DNA of 64,000 bases from Acidithiobacillus caldus ATCC 51756. Lineage in GTDB: Bacteria > Pseudomonadota > Gammaproteobacteria > Acidithiobacillales > Acidithiobacillaceae. The position numbers and the translations under genes were made by a program. A model generated the notes under the pieces. It was not told the origin of the DNA. It saw only the letters and a list, made by a program, of their open reading frames with translations, and ran no database searches. The stretch covers positions 1,185,549 through 1,249,548 of the forward strand of contig NZ_CP005986.1 in NCBI RefSeq assembly GCF_000175575.2, written 5' to 3'. The stretch's first letter is position 1. Each line of letters starts with the position of its first letter. Below are positions 9,623-64,000 of the stretch, in pieces.

Positions 9623-10885
9623 TCAGGCGGCGTCCTGTTGAGGATCCAGCCGGGTTTCGTTGGCAGGCATCCCATCGACAAATGTCACCCCGGCAAAGAG
9701 CTCGCGCAGTCTTTCCGGATGCTGAATCCCGCGCCAGTGTCTCTCTGCCTGCTGGATGAGCTTGTAGCTCAGGCCAAGGAAAGTGGCTCGAGAGACACAG
9801 TTTTTAGTGCGGCTGCTGCGTTGCCGTACGGTGGCGAAGGTCGATTCGATGGCGTTGCTGCTGCGGATATGCCGCCAGTGCTCTGCCGGGAAGTCGAAGA
9901 AGGTCAGCAGCACGTCCCGGTCCTTCTCGAGCTTTGCGACCGCTCTGGGATATTTGGCCTGGTAGTCCCGCACGAAGGCTTGCCAGGCTTTCTCCGCAGC
10001 TTCACGGGTGTCGGCCATCCAGATCGCCTGCAGGGCGGCCTTGGCTTTCCCCTGAAGGCGCTTCGGTAGCTCGTTGAGGATGTTGGCCGTCTTGTGCACC
10101 CAACAGCGCTGATGACGGGTTTGTGGGTAAATCTCGTCCAGGGCGGCCCAGAAACCCATCGCCCCATCTCCTATGGCCAGTAGTGGCGCCTCCTGCAGCC
10201 CGCGGTCGCGCAAGTCCCGCAGGATCTCTAGCCAGGAGGCTTTGGACTCCCGTAAACCGTCGGTGACCGCCACGACCTCCTTCTTGCCCTCGGCCGTCAC
10301 GCCAATAATGACCAAGAGACACATCCGGGGATCGTCCTCCGCCCGCAGCTGGGTATAGACCCCGTCGGCCCACCAATAGGCGTAGCGTTTTCCCTGTAGA
10401 GACCGGCGCTGCCATTGGGCATGCTCTTGCGCCCATTCGACTTTCAAGCGTCCCAGCACGGCCGGAGAAAGCCCCTTGGCCTCCTCGCCCAGGAGAACAG
10501 ACAGCGCCTCGTGCATCCGTCCCGACGATACCCCGTGCAGGTACAACCAGGGGAGCGCTGCGGCCACGGTCCGCGACTTGCGCACGTAGGGCGGTACCAG
10601 GGAAGAACGGAAGACCACGCCCGAACCGGAGCGGTCTCGCACCTTGGGGACCTGTACAGGCACGGGGCCGACCGCTGTCAGGATCTCCCGCTCCGGCAGA
10701 TATCCATTCCGCACGACGGCCCGGCGACCATCGACCATGCGTACCGCGGCATACTCCTCCAGCAGCACCTGCACCTCGCCCTCGATGGCCTGTTGGATCA
10801 GCTGGCGCGCGGACCGCCGCAATAAGCCCTCGATGTTCAGGCCCAACTCTCCCATTCCTCCGTCGAAACCAGTACTCTCTTGCAT
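9623..10885 (-). CDS. IS256-family (mutator-type) transposase
   Basis: 420 residues, usual for the family. The DDE catalytic triad is visible as D174 (WWADGVY), D240 (AIGDGAMGF) and E347 (SNAIESTFATVRQR), and the family CxxH motif is C261-W-V-H264 between the second Asp and the Glu. The N-terminal 100 residues carry the expected helix-rich DNA-binding region. The start at 10885 is chosen because GAGGAG lies 7-12 bases upstream; a longer frame to 10936 lacks such a site. It should catalyse copy-out/paste-in transposition of its own element. Confidence 0.93.
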   Translation of the reverse strand: MQESTGFDGGMGELGLNIEGLLRRSARQLIQQAIEGEVQVLLEEYAAVRMVDGRRAVVRNGYLPEREILTAVGPVPVQVPKVRDRSGSGVVFRSSLVPPYVRKSRTVAAALPWLYLHGVSSGRMHEALSVLLGEEAKGLSPAVLGRLKVEWAQEHAQWQRRSLQGKRYAYWWADGVYTQLRAEDDPRMCLLVIIGVTAEGKKEVVAVTDGLRESKASWLEILRDLRDRGLQEAPLLAIGDGAMGFWAALDEIYPQTRHQRCWVHKTANILNELPKRLQGKAKAALQAIWMADTREAAEKAWQAFVRDYQAKYPRAVAKLEKDRDVLLTFFDFPAEHWRHIRSSNAIESTFATVRQRSSRTKNCVSRATFLGLSYKLIQQAERHWRGIQHPERLRELFAGVTFVDGMPANETRLDPQQDAA

Positions 10886-10973
10886 GGCGCACTCCTCATT
10901 CGTTGCGAATCGGATCCAGAAACCCTTTTCTAGCAACAGTGCGCCACCCTCCTCAAGCTAGTTGTAGACCTCC

Positions 10974-59723: not shown

Positions 59724-61025
59724 ATGCGCGTGAGTACCCCCGAGTTCTACCAGAGCAGCCTTTCTGGCCTGCTCAATCAACAGAGCACGCTGAACAATTT
59801 GTCTCAGCAGCTTTCCACCGGTAACGTGCTGATCGATCCCAGTAGCAATCCCGTGGCCTATGCCCAAACCTTGAATCTGTCGGCACGTATCGCCAATCTC
59901 AATCAGTACCAGCAGAGCAACAATTACGCCCAGCAAAACCTGCAACTGAGCAGCAGTACGCTACAGAGTGTGAGTACCCTCATCAATCAGGTACAGCAAC
60001 TTGCCGTTCAGATGAACAACGGTACCGTCAATGGCAACGACCTACAGAATGCCGTCACGGCCATGCAGGGCAATCTTCAGCAATTGGTGCAGCTGGCCAA
60101 CACCCAGGACGCTAATGGGAGCTATATCTTCGGCGGTTCCGAAAGCAATCGCCCGCCTTTCCAATTGCAGAGCAACGGCAGTGTGCAATATCTGGGGGAC
60201 TCGGCCCAGAAGACACTGCAGATTGGCCCGGGGCTCAGCGTCCCGAGTTCCCAGGCAGGCAATGCTATTTTCATGAATGTTCCGGCGGGTAACGGCACCT
60301 TTACGGTGGTGCCCTCGGGCAGCAACTATAGCGCATCCTCGGGAGCTAGTAGCGGTAATGTCGGGACAACCACCTTGGGGCCGGGTGCGGTGGTGGATGC
60401 AAAGGCCGCCAACGATTTTTTTGTAGCCCAAGGCGGACAACTGGTAGTTACCATCAGTAACGGTACCTCCGGTCTCACCTATAGCGTGAGCAGCGGTGTG
60501 GGTAGTGGGATGGCGAGTTCTGGAATAGTCGCCTCGGGCACCTATACACCCGGTATGAGCATTTCCGTCCCCTCCGCCGGGGGCGCTAGCCCCATGCTCA
60601 GTGTGAGCGCGGCGGGTGAGCCGGCACCCGGACAGAGCGCGACATTCACCCTGCAGCCGGCAGGTACGCAAAGCATATTTCAAACCTTTCAGAATCTTAT
60701 CCAGGCCCTGCAAGCGGGAAGTGGTTCTCCTGGAGCTAACACCCAGCGTGCCCAAGGCATCAGCAACGCTCTAGCAAACCTGAGTCAATTTCAAACCACG
60801 CTCCTCAGCACCCAGGCCACCATCGGCAGTGAATTACAGCAGGCGCAAAATGTCAGCAACCTCAACACCAATCTACTGCAGCAGTTCCAGACGACCCAAG
60901 GCAATCTGCAGGATGTCAGTTACCCTCAGGTCATAACCCAGTTCCAGCAGAGCAGCACAGCGCTGCAGGCGGCGCAGAAGGCGTTTGTGCAGGTGCAGGG
61001 GTTGAGTCTCTTTCAGTATATATGA
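59724..61025 (+). CDS. flgL: hook-filament junction protein FlgL (HAP3)
   Basis: 433 residues with flagellin-like ends: MRVSTPEFYQSSLSGLLNQQ, then LSQQLSTGNVLIDPSSNPVAYA, and a C-terminal helix ending QAAQKAFVQVQGLSLFQYI. The central part carries the FlgL element ANTQDANGSYIFGGSESNRPPF and a Ser/Gly-rich insert. AGGAG lies before the ATG. It is the last recognised structural gene of the operon; no flagellin follows within the window. Confidence 0.94.
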   Translation: MRVSTPEFYQSSLSGLLNQQSTLNNLSQQLSTGNVLIDPSSNPVAYAQTLNLSARIANLNQYQQSNNYAQQNLQLSSSTLQSVSTLINQVQQLAVQMNNGTVNGNDLQNAVTAMQGNLQQLVQLANTQDANGSYIFGGSESNRPPFQLQSNGSVQYLGDSAQKTLQIGPGLSVPSSQAGNAIFMNVPAGNGTFTVVPSGSNYSASSGASSGNVGTTTLGPGAVVDAKAANDFFVAQGGQLVVTISNGTSGLTYSVSSGVGSGMASSGIVASGTYTPGMSISVPSAGGASPMLSVSAAGEPAPGQSATFTLQPAGTQSIFQTFQNLIQALQAGSGSPGANTQRAQGISNALANLSQFQTTLLSTQATIGSELQQAQNVSNLNTNLLQQFQTTQGNLQDVSYPQVITQFQQSSTALQAAQKAFVQVQGLSLFQYI

Positions 61026-61057
61026 CGCCGTGTTGGTAACGCATGAGGGTGCGAGTA

Positions 61058-64000
61058 ATGGCTGAGCAATACTTGTGGCAGGAACTCGACGCAAATCCCA
61101 CGGACACAGTTTTGGATGCCTATCACAGCAATCCACGCACTGATCTTTTGAGCCTCCTGAAGAGAGAACCAAGACGAGTGCTGGACATTGGCTGTGCCGG
61201 CGGGGCTACTGGTAAACTGCTTATGCAACGATATAGAGCAGTAGAACTGTGGGGTATTGAGGCAAATCCTGCCATGGCCCGGATTGCGGCGCAGCATTAC
61301 CATCGGGTCATTCCCGAACCGTTCGATAAGGTTGATCTCTGGGCGTATGGACTTGACTCAGAATCAGTTGATACGGTATTGCTCGCAGATGTTCTCGAGC
61401 ATATGGCCAATCCATGGAAAGCGCTGGTCGCTCTGCGTTCGTGGCTTACCAGCGATGCGCAGATCTTGGTAAGCCTTCCAAATCTGAGAAATGCATGGAT
61501 ATTGGGTCAATTGGCAGCGGGAAGATTTCAATATGAATCCTCAGGAATACTGGATATTACACACCTCCGCTTTTTCACAAGAATTGAGGCAATCAGGATG
61601 CTTTCAGAAACGGGTTATAACATTGAGGATGTTCGATATGGCCCGGATCAGCGATTCCTGTCAACTCCGAAGCCATCGATATATCCCTCCGAAGTTTCCG
61701 CCGGGGGCATGACCATCCATGTGCAGTCGGAGGAGGAATATGTTGAACTAACGAGTCTGCAGGTATTTATTCGCGCTGGGAAACATCAGAGAGCATTGAC
61801 AGAGGATTCTTTGTCCGGTACCTCGGATATTAGTGTCTTGCCTTGGGAGGTACTACACCAGGGCTCCGTAAAGGGCTCCAGTGTAGCCGTTCTGCTGCAT
61901 CTATTTTATCCAGATCTTTGGCCGGAACTTTTTTCCCAGTTGCGCACAATTCCTGGCGCACCCGATCTGTACATATCGCTGTGTTCTGAATCGCGCCATG
62001 CACTCGTTGAAATTACGCAAGATTGGCCTTCGGCGAAGGTTATTTTGGTTCCCAATCGCGGGCGCGATATTGCTCCTCGCTTGCAACTGGCCAAACTGGC
62101 ACAGGCGAGCGGTAGCGAATTATTACTGTTTATCCATGGTAAGCGATCGCCACACCTCAAGGACTTAAAGGAAGAGCATGTTAAAGGTACTTTCCTGGAG
62201 CATAGAGACGGAGATCGTTGGCGCCGGGAGCTTATCGGTCCACTTTGCCATAATGCAGCAGAAATCCTAGAGAAGTTTCGGTGCGAGCCACAGCTCGGAA
62301 TGGTTGGTCCGGCCGGTTTCTGGATAAATTTGATGCCCGACGCGAATTTTTTGCTACTCCAGCAACTGACACAGAAACTGGGCCTGAGCATTTGTTTCGG
62401 ACAGGATGGATTTTTTGCGGGAAGCATGTTCTGGGCGCGCGTTTCGGCCCTAGCGCCTGTATGGTCTGAGGTTGACCTTTCCTCGCATTTTGAAGACGAA
62501 ACCGGGAAGCTCGATAAAACCCTGGCCCACGCCTATGAGCGAGTTTTTGCAGCTCAAGTTAGCAGATCTGGTTTCAGAGTGGAGGACAGCGATGGCAAAC
62601 TTATGCTTGAACCAAGCCCCGACCCCCGTCCTTGGTTGACCGTTCGGCGGTGTCTTGAAGCAGAGCGGGTGTGGTCGCGGGATTGGCATCCTAATAGACA
62701 GATTAAGTTGGCTTATGTGTTATTGATTGGTGATAATCGAGGTCTGGAAAAGACGAAGCAAAGTATAGAACAGCAGTGGCTTGCGGTAGGCGATACTGCC
62801 TTGGTTCGCGCCGATGAGAGCGGACTGTTGGCTACGTTAAATATGATAGCAGCCTCCGAGGTCTGGGACTGGATCGCGTTCATTGACGCCGGGGATACGC
62901 TTTCGGCTGATGCCACGTTTCGTGTTGAACGAGCCATCGCTGATCACCCTGAATGGCAGGTCATCTACAGTGACGAGGACTCGCTCACAGCGGATGGGGA
63001 GCATGTAAATCCGCACTGTAAGCCTGACTTCAATATCGACTACTTGCGCAGTCTGCCCTATGTGGGTGGGCTTCTGGTCATTCGACGAGACCTTTTTCTG
63101 GAGCTCGGTGGTTTTGATCCGGCGGCGGATGGTGCGGAGGACTACGACCTGGTATTGCGGGCCTGGGAACGTGTTGGGGACGCTGGGATCGGTCATATTG
63201 CGGAGGTCTTATACCATCGACGTCAGGGAGGCGGGCATTGTCTGCTGTCCGTCCAGGAGATCCTTGCGGCGAGCAAGGCAGCGCTGGAACGGCATTTGCG
63301 GCGTTTGAACATCGCAGCGGAAGTTCTGCCTGGCCCCTTTCCGCCAGCCACCCGCGTGCGCTATCCGCTGACGTCGACGCCCGTGGTCTCCATCGTGATC
63401 CCTACACGCAATCAGTTGCCCATGCTGCAGCGTTGCGTAGAATCCGTGATCGAGAAAACGCGCTATCCCCACTACGAGATACTCATCGTCGACAACGATA
63501 GCGATGAACCCGAGGCGGTGAAGTATCTGGAGCTTTTGGCGGCCCAGGAAGAAAGTTTCGGTGGCAGGCTACGTGTTATTCGACATCCCGGAGCCTTCAA
63601 TTTCTCAGCCATGAATAATCGTGCTGTGGACCTCGCACGCGGCGAGTACATCCTTCTGCTCAATAACGACACGGCCGTTTTGCACGAGGATTGGCTGGAC
63701 GAGATGGTCAGTCAGGCACTGCGTCCGGAGGTGGGTATCGTTGGGGCAAAGCTGCTTTTCCCCGATGGTCGGATCCAGCATGCTGGGGTCATTTTGGGTT
63801 TGTGCGGTCCGGCGGAGCATCCCTTCATTGGTCAGCCCGCGGAATACCGCGGTTATTTTGGTCGTGCTATGCTCACCCAGAATCTATCGGCGGTGACTGG
63901 GGCATGTCTGCTGATTTCCAAAGCACTGTACCAGGCCGTTGGTGGACTGGACGAGCACGATTTTCGGGTGTCCTACAACGATGTGGATCTATGCCTCAAG
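61058..64000 (+). CDS. giant methyltransferase-RgpF-like-glycosyltransferase fusion, 3' end beyond window
   Basis: The frame is open for at least 981 codons and leaves the window. Residues about 1-215 are a SAM methyltransferase with motif I VLDIGCAGG (41-49) and the post-motif LADVLEHMANPW. Residues about 235-500 resemble RgpF-type rhamnan synthesis proteins: NRGRDIAP near 333 and FIHGKRSPH near 360. Two GT2-like regions follow, one with VIYSDEDSL near 638 and a second complete start VSIVIPTRN near 776 with the DxD-type LNNDTAVL near 868. The start ATG 61058 has GAGGGT 8 bases upstream; ATG 61043 is possible. It starts 32 bases after flgL, so it is probably read from the flagellar operon. 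Flagellin or surface glycan synthesis is the likely role. Confidence 0.82.
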   Translation, partial: MAEQYLWQELDANPTDTVLDAYHSNPRTDLLSLLKREPRRVLDIGCAGGATGKLLMQRYRAVELWGIEANPAMARIAAQHYHRVIPEPFDKVDLWAYGLDSESVDTVLLADVLEHMANPWKALVALRSWLTSDAQILVSLPNLRNAWILGQLAAGRFQYESSGILDITHLRFFTRIEAIRMLSETGYNIEDVRYGPDQRFLSTPKPSIYPSEVSAGGMTIHVQSEEEYVELTSLQVFIRAGKHQRALTEDSLSGTSDISVLPWEVLHQGSVKGSSVAVLLHLFYPDLWPELFSQLRTIPGAPDLYISLCSESRHALVEITQDWPSAKVILVPNRGRDIAPRLQLAKLAQASGSELLLFIHGKRSPHLKDLKEEHVKGTFLEHRDGDRWRRELIGPLCHNAAEILEKFRCEPQLGMVGPAGFWINLMPDANFLLLQQLTQKLGLSICFGQDGFFAGSMFWARVSALAPVWSEVDLSSHFEDETGKLDKTLAHAYERVFAAQVSRSGFRVEDSDGKLMLEPSPDPRPWLTVRRCLEAERVWSRDWHPNRQIKLAYVLLIGDNRGLEKTKQSIEQQWLAVGDTALVRADESGLLATLNMIAASEVWDWIAFIDAGDTLSADATFRVERAIADHPEWQVIYSDEDSLTADGEHVNPHCKPDFNIDYLRSLPYVGGLLVIRRDLFLELGGFDPAADGAEDYDLVLRAWERVGDAGIGHIAEVLYHRRQGGGHCLLSVQEILAASKAALERHLRRLNIAAEVLPGPFPPATRVRYPLTSTPVVSIVIPTRNQLPMLQRCVESVIEKTRYPHYEILIVDNDSDEPEAVKYLELLAAQEESFGGRLRVIRHPGAFNFSAMNNRAVDLARGEYILLLNNDTAVLHEDWLDEMVSQALRPEVGIVGAKLLFPDGRIQHAGVILGLCGPAEHPFIGQPAEYRGYFGRAMLTQNLSAVTGACLLISKALYQAVGGLDEHDFRVSYNDVDLCLK

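Follow-up and report, generated by a model that had tools for sequence, protein, structure and literature searches.

What does a giant gene with methyltransferase and glycosyltransferase domains do directly behind flgL in Acidithiobacillus caldus ATCC 51756, at a place where flagellin is expected? The gene runs off the end of the 64,000-nucleotide stretch analysed here (C1:1185549-1249548, hereafter the window), and the whole genome sequence was used to read beyond that end. Part of the second contig of this genome matches plasmids of A. caldus at 92%. A preliminary description of the window had proposed a flagellin glycosylation system. This proposal is strongly supported by the adjacent fliC gene, by the way the enzyme tracks flagellin across the family, by a copy in a second flagellar cluster and by a core that recurs in the Pseudomonas enzyme encoded at the fgt1 position. 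We consider it very probable that the gene encodes a predicted multi-domain flagellin O-glycosyltransferase of the Fgt1 kind, in which a constant core carries N-terminal modules that have been exchanged across the family.

Extent and domain structure of the giant gene

The frame is open from an ATG at 61058 to the window end (at least 981 codons in the ORF listing) and lies 32 bases behind the flgL stop at 61025, as the preliminary description had it. A further in-frame ATG at 61043 would shorten this gap to 17 bases and lengthen the protein from 1394 to 1399 aa, but the later start is preferred because the first residue of the homologues in G009 and G019 aligns with M6 (61058). Past the window the gene extends to a stop at 65242 (window numbering), a fifth domain appears, and fliC follows 105 bases on. 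A frame of this length is far beyond chance, and full-length homologues of about 1395-1420 aa occur in other species with 62-68% identity.

The protein consists of five domains in the order SAM methyltransferase, RgpF, GT2, GT2 and GT4-like (Table 1). The four regions recognised earlier within the window all hold up as Methyltransf_23, RgpF, GT2a and GT2b. The methyltransferase reaches 51.4 bits against a curated Pfam cut-off of 27, and its phmmer match to the methyltransferase 3cc8 has an E value of 1e-26. RgpF (PF05045) reaches 89.5 bits against a cut-off of 25, although the match covers only profile positions 263-498 of 503; searched by sequence against solved structures, this domain gave no credible match, and the list from its fold comparison was filled by GT2 matches, so that it is barely a test of RgpF. 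GT2a is seen only weakly and in part by Pfam, and the structure model gives it a full GT-A fold, while the Pfam GT2 match of GT2b spans aa 783-962. Both GT2 domains keep their catalytic motifs in Acidithiobacillus and near relatives.

The fifth domain (GT4c, aa 1065-1399, outside the window) scores below the Pfam cut-off. A model of the corresponding L130 domain (pLDDT 92.4) has a GT-B fold and superposes on 7qsg with Z 25.5 and an rmsd of 3.1 across 299 residues. Of the EX7E motif, the second Glu is invariant and the first is Ala, Cys, Gly or Ser in 40/40 sequences. WsaF, a solved rhamnosyltransferase that also belongs to GT4, likewise lacks the first Glu and has Pro at this site (PMC2943079), and GT4c is therefore called GT4-like by its fold. 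None of the NCBIfam equivalog cut-offs was reached by the giant protein, the best being MftF with 97.9 bits against a cut-off of 280.

Table 1. Features of the giant gene in the window, with Uma2-family genes at related loci
Feature	Position	Strand	Basis
flgL (hook-filament junction protein), directly upstream of the giant gene	59724..61025	+	position and homology; Flagellin_N match
Giant gene, in-window part, running on to 65242; probable start 61058, alternative 61043	61043..64000	+	ORF; homologue starts
SAM methyltransferase domain, exchangeable module 1, aa 35-195	61145..61627	+	Pfam Methyltransf_23 E 1.3e-13; phmmer to 3cc8
Outer exchange boundary, the linker (aa 250-264) that separates module 1 from RgpF	61790..61834	+	own aa 249, 250, 264 as starting points of similarity to proteins whose first module differs
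RgpF domain, exchangeable module 2, aa 272-506	61856..62560	+	Pfam E 2.7e-25
Linker aa 499-531, inner exchange boundary, start of the constant core	62537..62635	+	similarity to other architectures begins at own aa 499-531
Core domain GT2a, aa 553-770, GT-A fold; motifs GD617-618, YxDE642-645	62699..63352	+	model and fold comparison, Z 15-18; motif columns
Core domain GT2b, aa 783 to about 1060, cut by window end; NND874-876	63389..64000	+	Pfam GT2 E 2.2e-23; motif columns
Uma2-family gene	L042:7609-8172	opposite	Pfam
Uma2-family gene	L046:6161-6724	opposite	position and length
Uma2-family gene	L050:6157-6720	opposite	position and length
Uma2-family gene	L056:8058-8621	opposite	position and length
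Uma2-family gene	L060:8501-9097	opposite	Pfam

Flagellar neighbourhood and co-occurrence with flagellin

The gene order is flgK-flgL-giant-fliC-flaG-fliD-fliS. The fliC gene encodes 524 aa with Flagellin_N and Flagellin_C domains, and beyond it lie the flaG-like gene, fliD, fliS, sigma-54-type regulators and then fliF onward. A sigma-28-like site (TAAAGTTT-N12-GTCGTTAA) begins 98 bases upstream of fliC, just past the giant stop, and most relatives have a similar site (TCAAGTTT-N11-GCCGTTAT or GTCGTTAA) 93-101 bases before fliC. Since this site falls between the giant stop and fliC, it appears that the giant gene is probably transcribed together with flgL, and fliC from a late promoter of its own. 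Invertible or repeat-driven switching was also looked for at the giant locus, which holds only the short imperfect repeats that chance would lead one to expect.

Across the family, the enzyme is present in 23 of the 29 genomes. Every genome with fliC carries the enzyme (23/23), while none of those without a flagellin match does (0/5); in the remaining genome (G016) only flgL is seen, cut by a contig end. The genomes are related, so a simple probability computed from these counts would be too generous, though there is no exception among them. The pattern suggests that all flagellated members of this acid-mine family glycosylate their flagellin. In this family the gene, already listed for Acidithiobacillus as a 'glycosyltransferase' located between FlgL and FliC, seems to have been annotated only under that name so far (PMC5468388).

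The same genome holds a second complete flagellar cluster (C1 about 1928000-1963000; L041, L039, L040), with homologues of flhA, flhB, fliR, fliI, fliM, fliN, fliG, fliF, fliC, flgL and flgK through flgE at 31-64% identity and with its own flgL, giant and fliC genes. Here PilZ and DUF4915 genes lie between flgL and the giant gene, whose product of 1183 aa comprises a methyltransferase and the core, the latter 51% identical to that of the window giant. Beside this cluster (L040, C1 about 1964000) recurs, 99.8% identical, a window gene of 437 aa (9623-10936) that is probably an insertion sequence.

Enzymes of rhamnan and O-antigen synthesis commonly have RgpF and GT2 domains, and by this token the giant protein might be a lipid-linked or surface polysaccharide enzyme (O-antigen, capsule) that sits in a flagellar operon by accident. 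However, no polysaccharide genes lie on either side of the giant gene; O-antigen or capsule genes to its right, which the preliminary description had named as the finding that would speak against a flagellar role, were looked for in the whole genome sequence and not found. Moreover, the presence of the enzyme follows fliC, each of the two flagellar clusters has its own copy, and distant genera have the gene at the same location. A polysaccharide function is thus very improbable, and modification of flagellin is the preferred reading.

Two further peculiarities were seen at related loci. Several relatives have a gene of the Uma2 family (putative nuclease) between the giant gene and fliC (Table 1), and tandem flagellin genes occur in L042:8408-10663, L050:3849-5918 and L056:8860-10713, where the first copy, of about 620-750 aa, is enlarged by an insert between conserved ends.

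Relatives of the core and known flagellin glycosylation systems

The core is found well outside the family. It was matched at E 1e-100 or better in 42 of 369 genomes of the class Gammaproteobacteria, and in fully read loci the ORFs that carry it are 1176-2717 aa long and have it at their C-terminal end; one locus departs from this pattern, and one ORF is truncated by the start of a contig. In 16/31 class-level loci fliC lies on the same strand within 1.5 kb downstream; about half of the members thus have no fliC directly downstream, the contig ending there in some cases. Relatives include Thiomonas bhubaneswarensis, whose giant protein (1409 aa) has the identical five-domain layout, as well as Ferrovum, Dyella, Iodobacter, Lonsdalea and Pseudomonas. 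The earlier suggestion that the system is suited to acid is not supported, because Pseudomonas, Dyella and Iodobacter, most of them no acid specialists, also have the core in their flagellar regions. A search for plasmid copies of the C-terminal domain gave only one match, a relative with 53% identity on an 847 kb megaplasmid of P. aeruginosa (NZ_CP131792.1:404187-405197).

Pseudomonas provides the link to a known function. The cores of Pseudomonas and Acidithiobacillus are about 50% identical, and in P. viridiflava, with a locus 56% identical to the window giant over GT2b-GT4c, a form of 1866 aa lies immediately before fliC. Two loci in Pseudomonas genomes related to P. viridiflava (L218, L219) have flgL, a protein of 1192-1198 aa with the core and then a GT2 protein of 970 aa; next comes fliC in L218 and FabH in L219, in which no flagellin was scored ahead of fliD. 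The fgt1-fgt2 island of P. syringae has the same layout, and there Fgt1 transfers rhamnose to a flagellin serine (PMC3927599) and the loss of Fgt1 results in non-glycosylated flagella (PMC12915359; PMC3402453). As in that island, the window giant lies between flgL and fliC, and it shares its GT2-GT2-GT4 core with the Pseudomonas enzyme at the fgt1 position, which stands in this comparison for the published Fgt1 sequence. Together, the shared core and the layout tie the core to flagellin O-glycosylation. The Pseudomonas form differs in being split into two proteins (about 1195 and 970 aa) accompanied by a FabH gene, in starting with a GT2 domain where the window giant has a methyltransferase and RgpF, and in having a degenerate metal motif in GT2b that is kept in Acidithiobacillus.

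Other systems resemble the giant enzyme in part. In the polymorphic islands of P. aeruginosa, likened here by description, the genes lie upstream of fliC and the flagellin glycan varies between strains on a common first rhamnose (PMC3958885); however, variety there is reported to come from which genes an island contains, and in Acidithiobacillus it lies inside one ORF. WsaE of the Geobacillus stearothermophilus S-layer combines an N-terminal methyltransferase with two glycosyltransferase domains, and its methylation caps the chain (PMC2943079). Compared by description, it shares with the giant enzyme the union of these activities in a single protein, but it belongs to an S-layer cluster and acts on a lipid-linked chain. 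Fusions of a glycosyltransferase with a methyltransferase in flagellin modification are already known from the Clostridioides difficile type B flagellin GT2, with methyl-rhamnose as product, and from the enterobacterial GT41-methyltransferase proteins (PMC5207246, PMC4875605), although these have another domain make-up and the C. difficile gene lies after fliC.

Exchange of front modules on a constant core

In the main system of the family, the C-terminal core of 870-880 aa is 72-96% identical, while total length ranges from 1162 to 1813 aa. We counted eleven front architectures, among them methyltransferase-RgpF (as in the window), FkbM-RgpF, GT2-RgpF, methyltransferase-GT9, methyltransferase-GT4, methyltransferase-GT2-GT4, GT4-GT2 and GT2 alone. 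The points of exchange sit in linkers, at aa 249-264 and 499-531 of the window giant. G022 and G025 share 97% identity in flgL and 96% in the core, and their front halves are without any similarity; G015 and G003 (flgL 90%, core 87%) have no front similarity either, and the proteins of G009 and G013 are 95% identical from RgpF on and begin with methyltransferases of different families. The core tree of 24 proteins calls for a minimum of 14 changes of front type, and types A, C, D and I each turn up at separate places. The number of changes and this recurrence argue for exchange and not for divergence alone; as read from these sequences, recombination in the linkers between domains has repeatedly swapped N-terminal modules on a constant core. 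Third-position G+C in the window giant is 0.42-0.60 over aa 1-700 (front) and 0.60-0.78 in the rear, and the lower value fits a later arrival of the front half.

One could suppose instead that the N-terminal variety reflects fast divergence of a single ancestral front half, given that the front is less conserved than the core within architecture A too. However, the fronts belong to different Pfam families (Methyltransf_23, FkbM, GT9, GT4, GT2, RgpF), they show no detectable similarity in proteins with 96% core identity, and the same front type returns on distant cores, all of which makes divergence without exchange extremely improbable. Module exchange thus remains the preferred explanation. 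A protein search of the same genome for silent spare N-terminal modules gave only the second giant protein and weak matches to single GT2 domains.

The usual account of variety in flagellin glycans is which whole genes an island holds, whereas here variety arises within one gene with a fixed core. We found no description of module exchange in flagellin glycosyltransferases among open-access papers, which is not proof of absence; that front modules are swapped within one gene while its core stays fixed is apparently new.

A possible mechanism of glycan assembly

The giant enzyme is presumably cytoplasmic and would act on FliC before its export by the flagellar secretion system. From the domains and their homologues we infer catalytic activity, in which the GT2-GT2-GT4 core would attach the first sugar, probably rhamnose, to Ser/Thr residues of FliC and then extend it. 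The sugar is proposed by homology to Pseudomonas, and the dTDP-rhamnose gene rmlD is present in the genome. Given that the first rhamnose is added by Fgt1, that the fgt1-type enzymes of Pseudomonas have lost the metal motif of GT2b and that GT4c is conserved, GT4c is the prime candidate for making the attachment. On this base the RgpF and methyltransferase modules would place an outer sugar, again probably a deoxyhexose, followed by an O-methyl cap. It is plausible, as the preliminary description had suggested, that a single enzyme makes a methylated oligosaccharide in full.

It is also possible that only some domains of the same flagellin glycosyltransferase are active, for example GT4c alone adding one rhamnose, and that the rest serves as scaffold or in acceptor binding. 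The NND motif of GT2b is indeed lost in the Pseudomonas fgt1-type enzymes and in several distant members, while GT4c is conserved everywhere, so one sugar per domain is no rule. However, neither GT2 domain has lost its motifs in Acidithiobacillus and its near relatives, and where N-terminal modules are exchanged, complete catalytic families of another kind take their place; we regard partial activity as rather unlikely.

The N-terminal position of methylation and the methyl cap made by WsaE suggest, as the simplest hypothesis, that the domain order from C- to N-terminus follows the glycan from base to tip. Module exchange would then permit related bacteria to keep the sugar base on flagellin and to alter its exposed end. 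Perhaps the enzyme even works as a collinear assembly line, in which a single gene swaps its N-terminal modules at two fixed linkers and so alters only the tip without touching the attachment core, a scenario that we put forward tentatively as a possibility short of even chances. Natural modules on a fixed core make the relation between domain order and sugar order directly testable, and such exchangeable modules are ready-made parts for placing defined glycans on flagellin. In two relatives (L048:4663-9638 and L055:3625-8635) nucleotide-sugar genes are inserted between flgL and the giant gene, comprising DegT aminotransferases, WbqC, FdtA, Gfo/Idh, ATP-grasp and methyltransferases, and these inserts point to amino-deoxyhexose outer sugars in those species.
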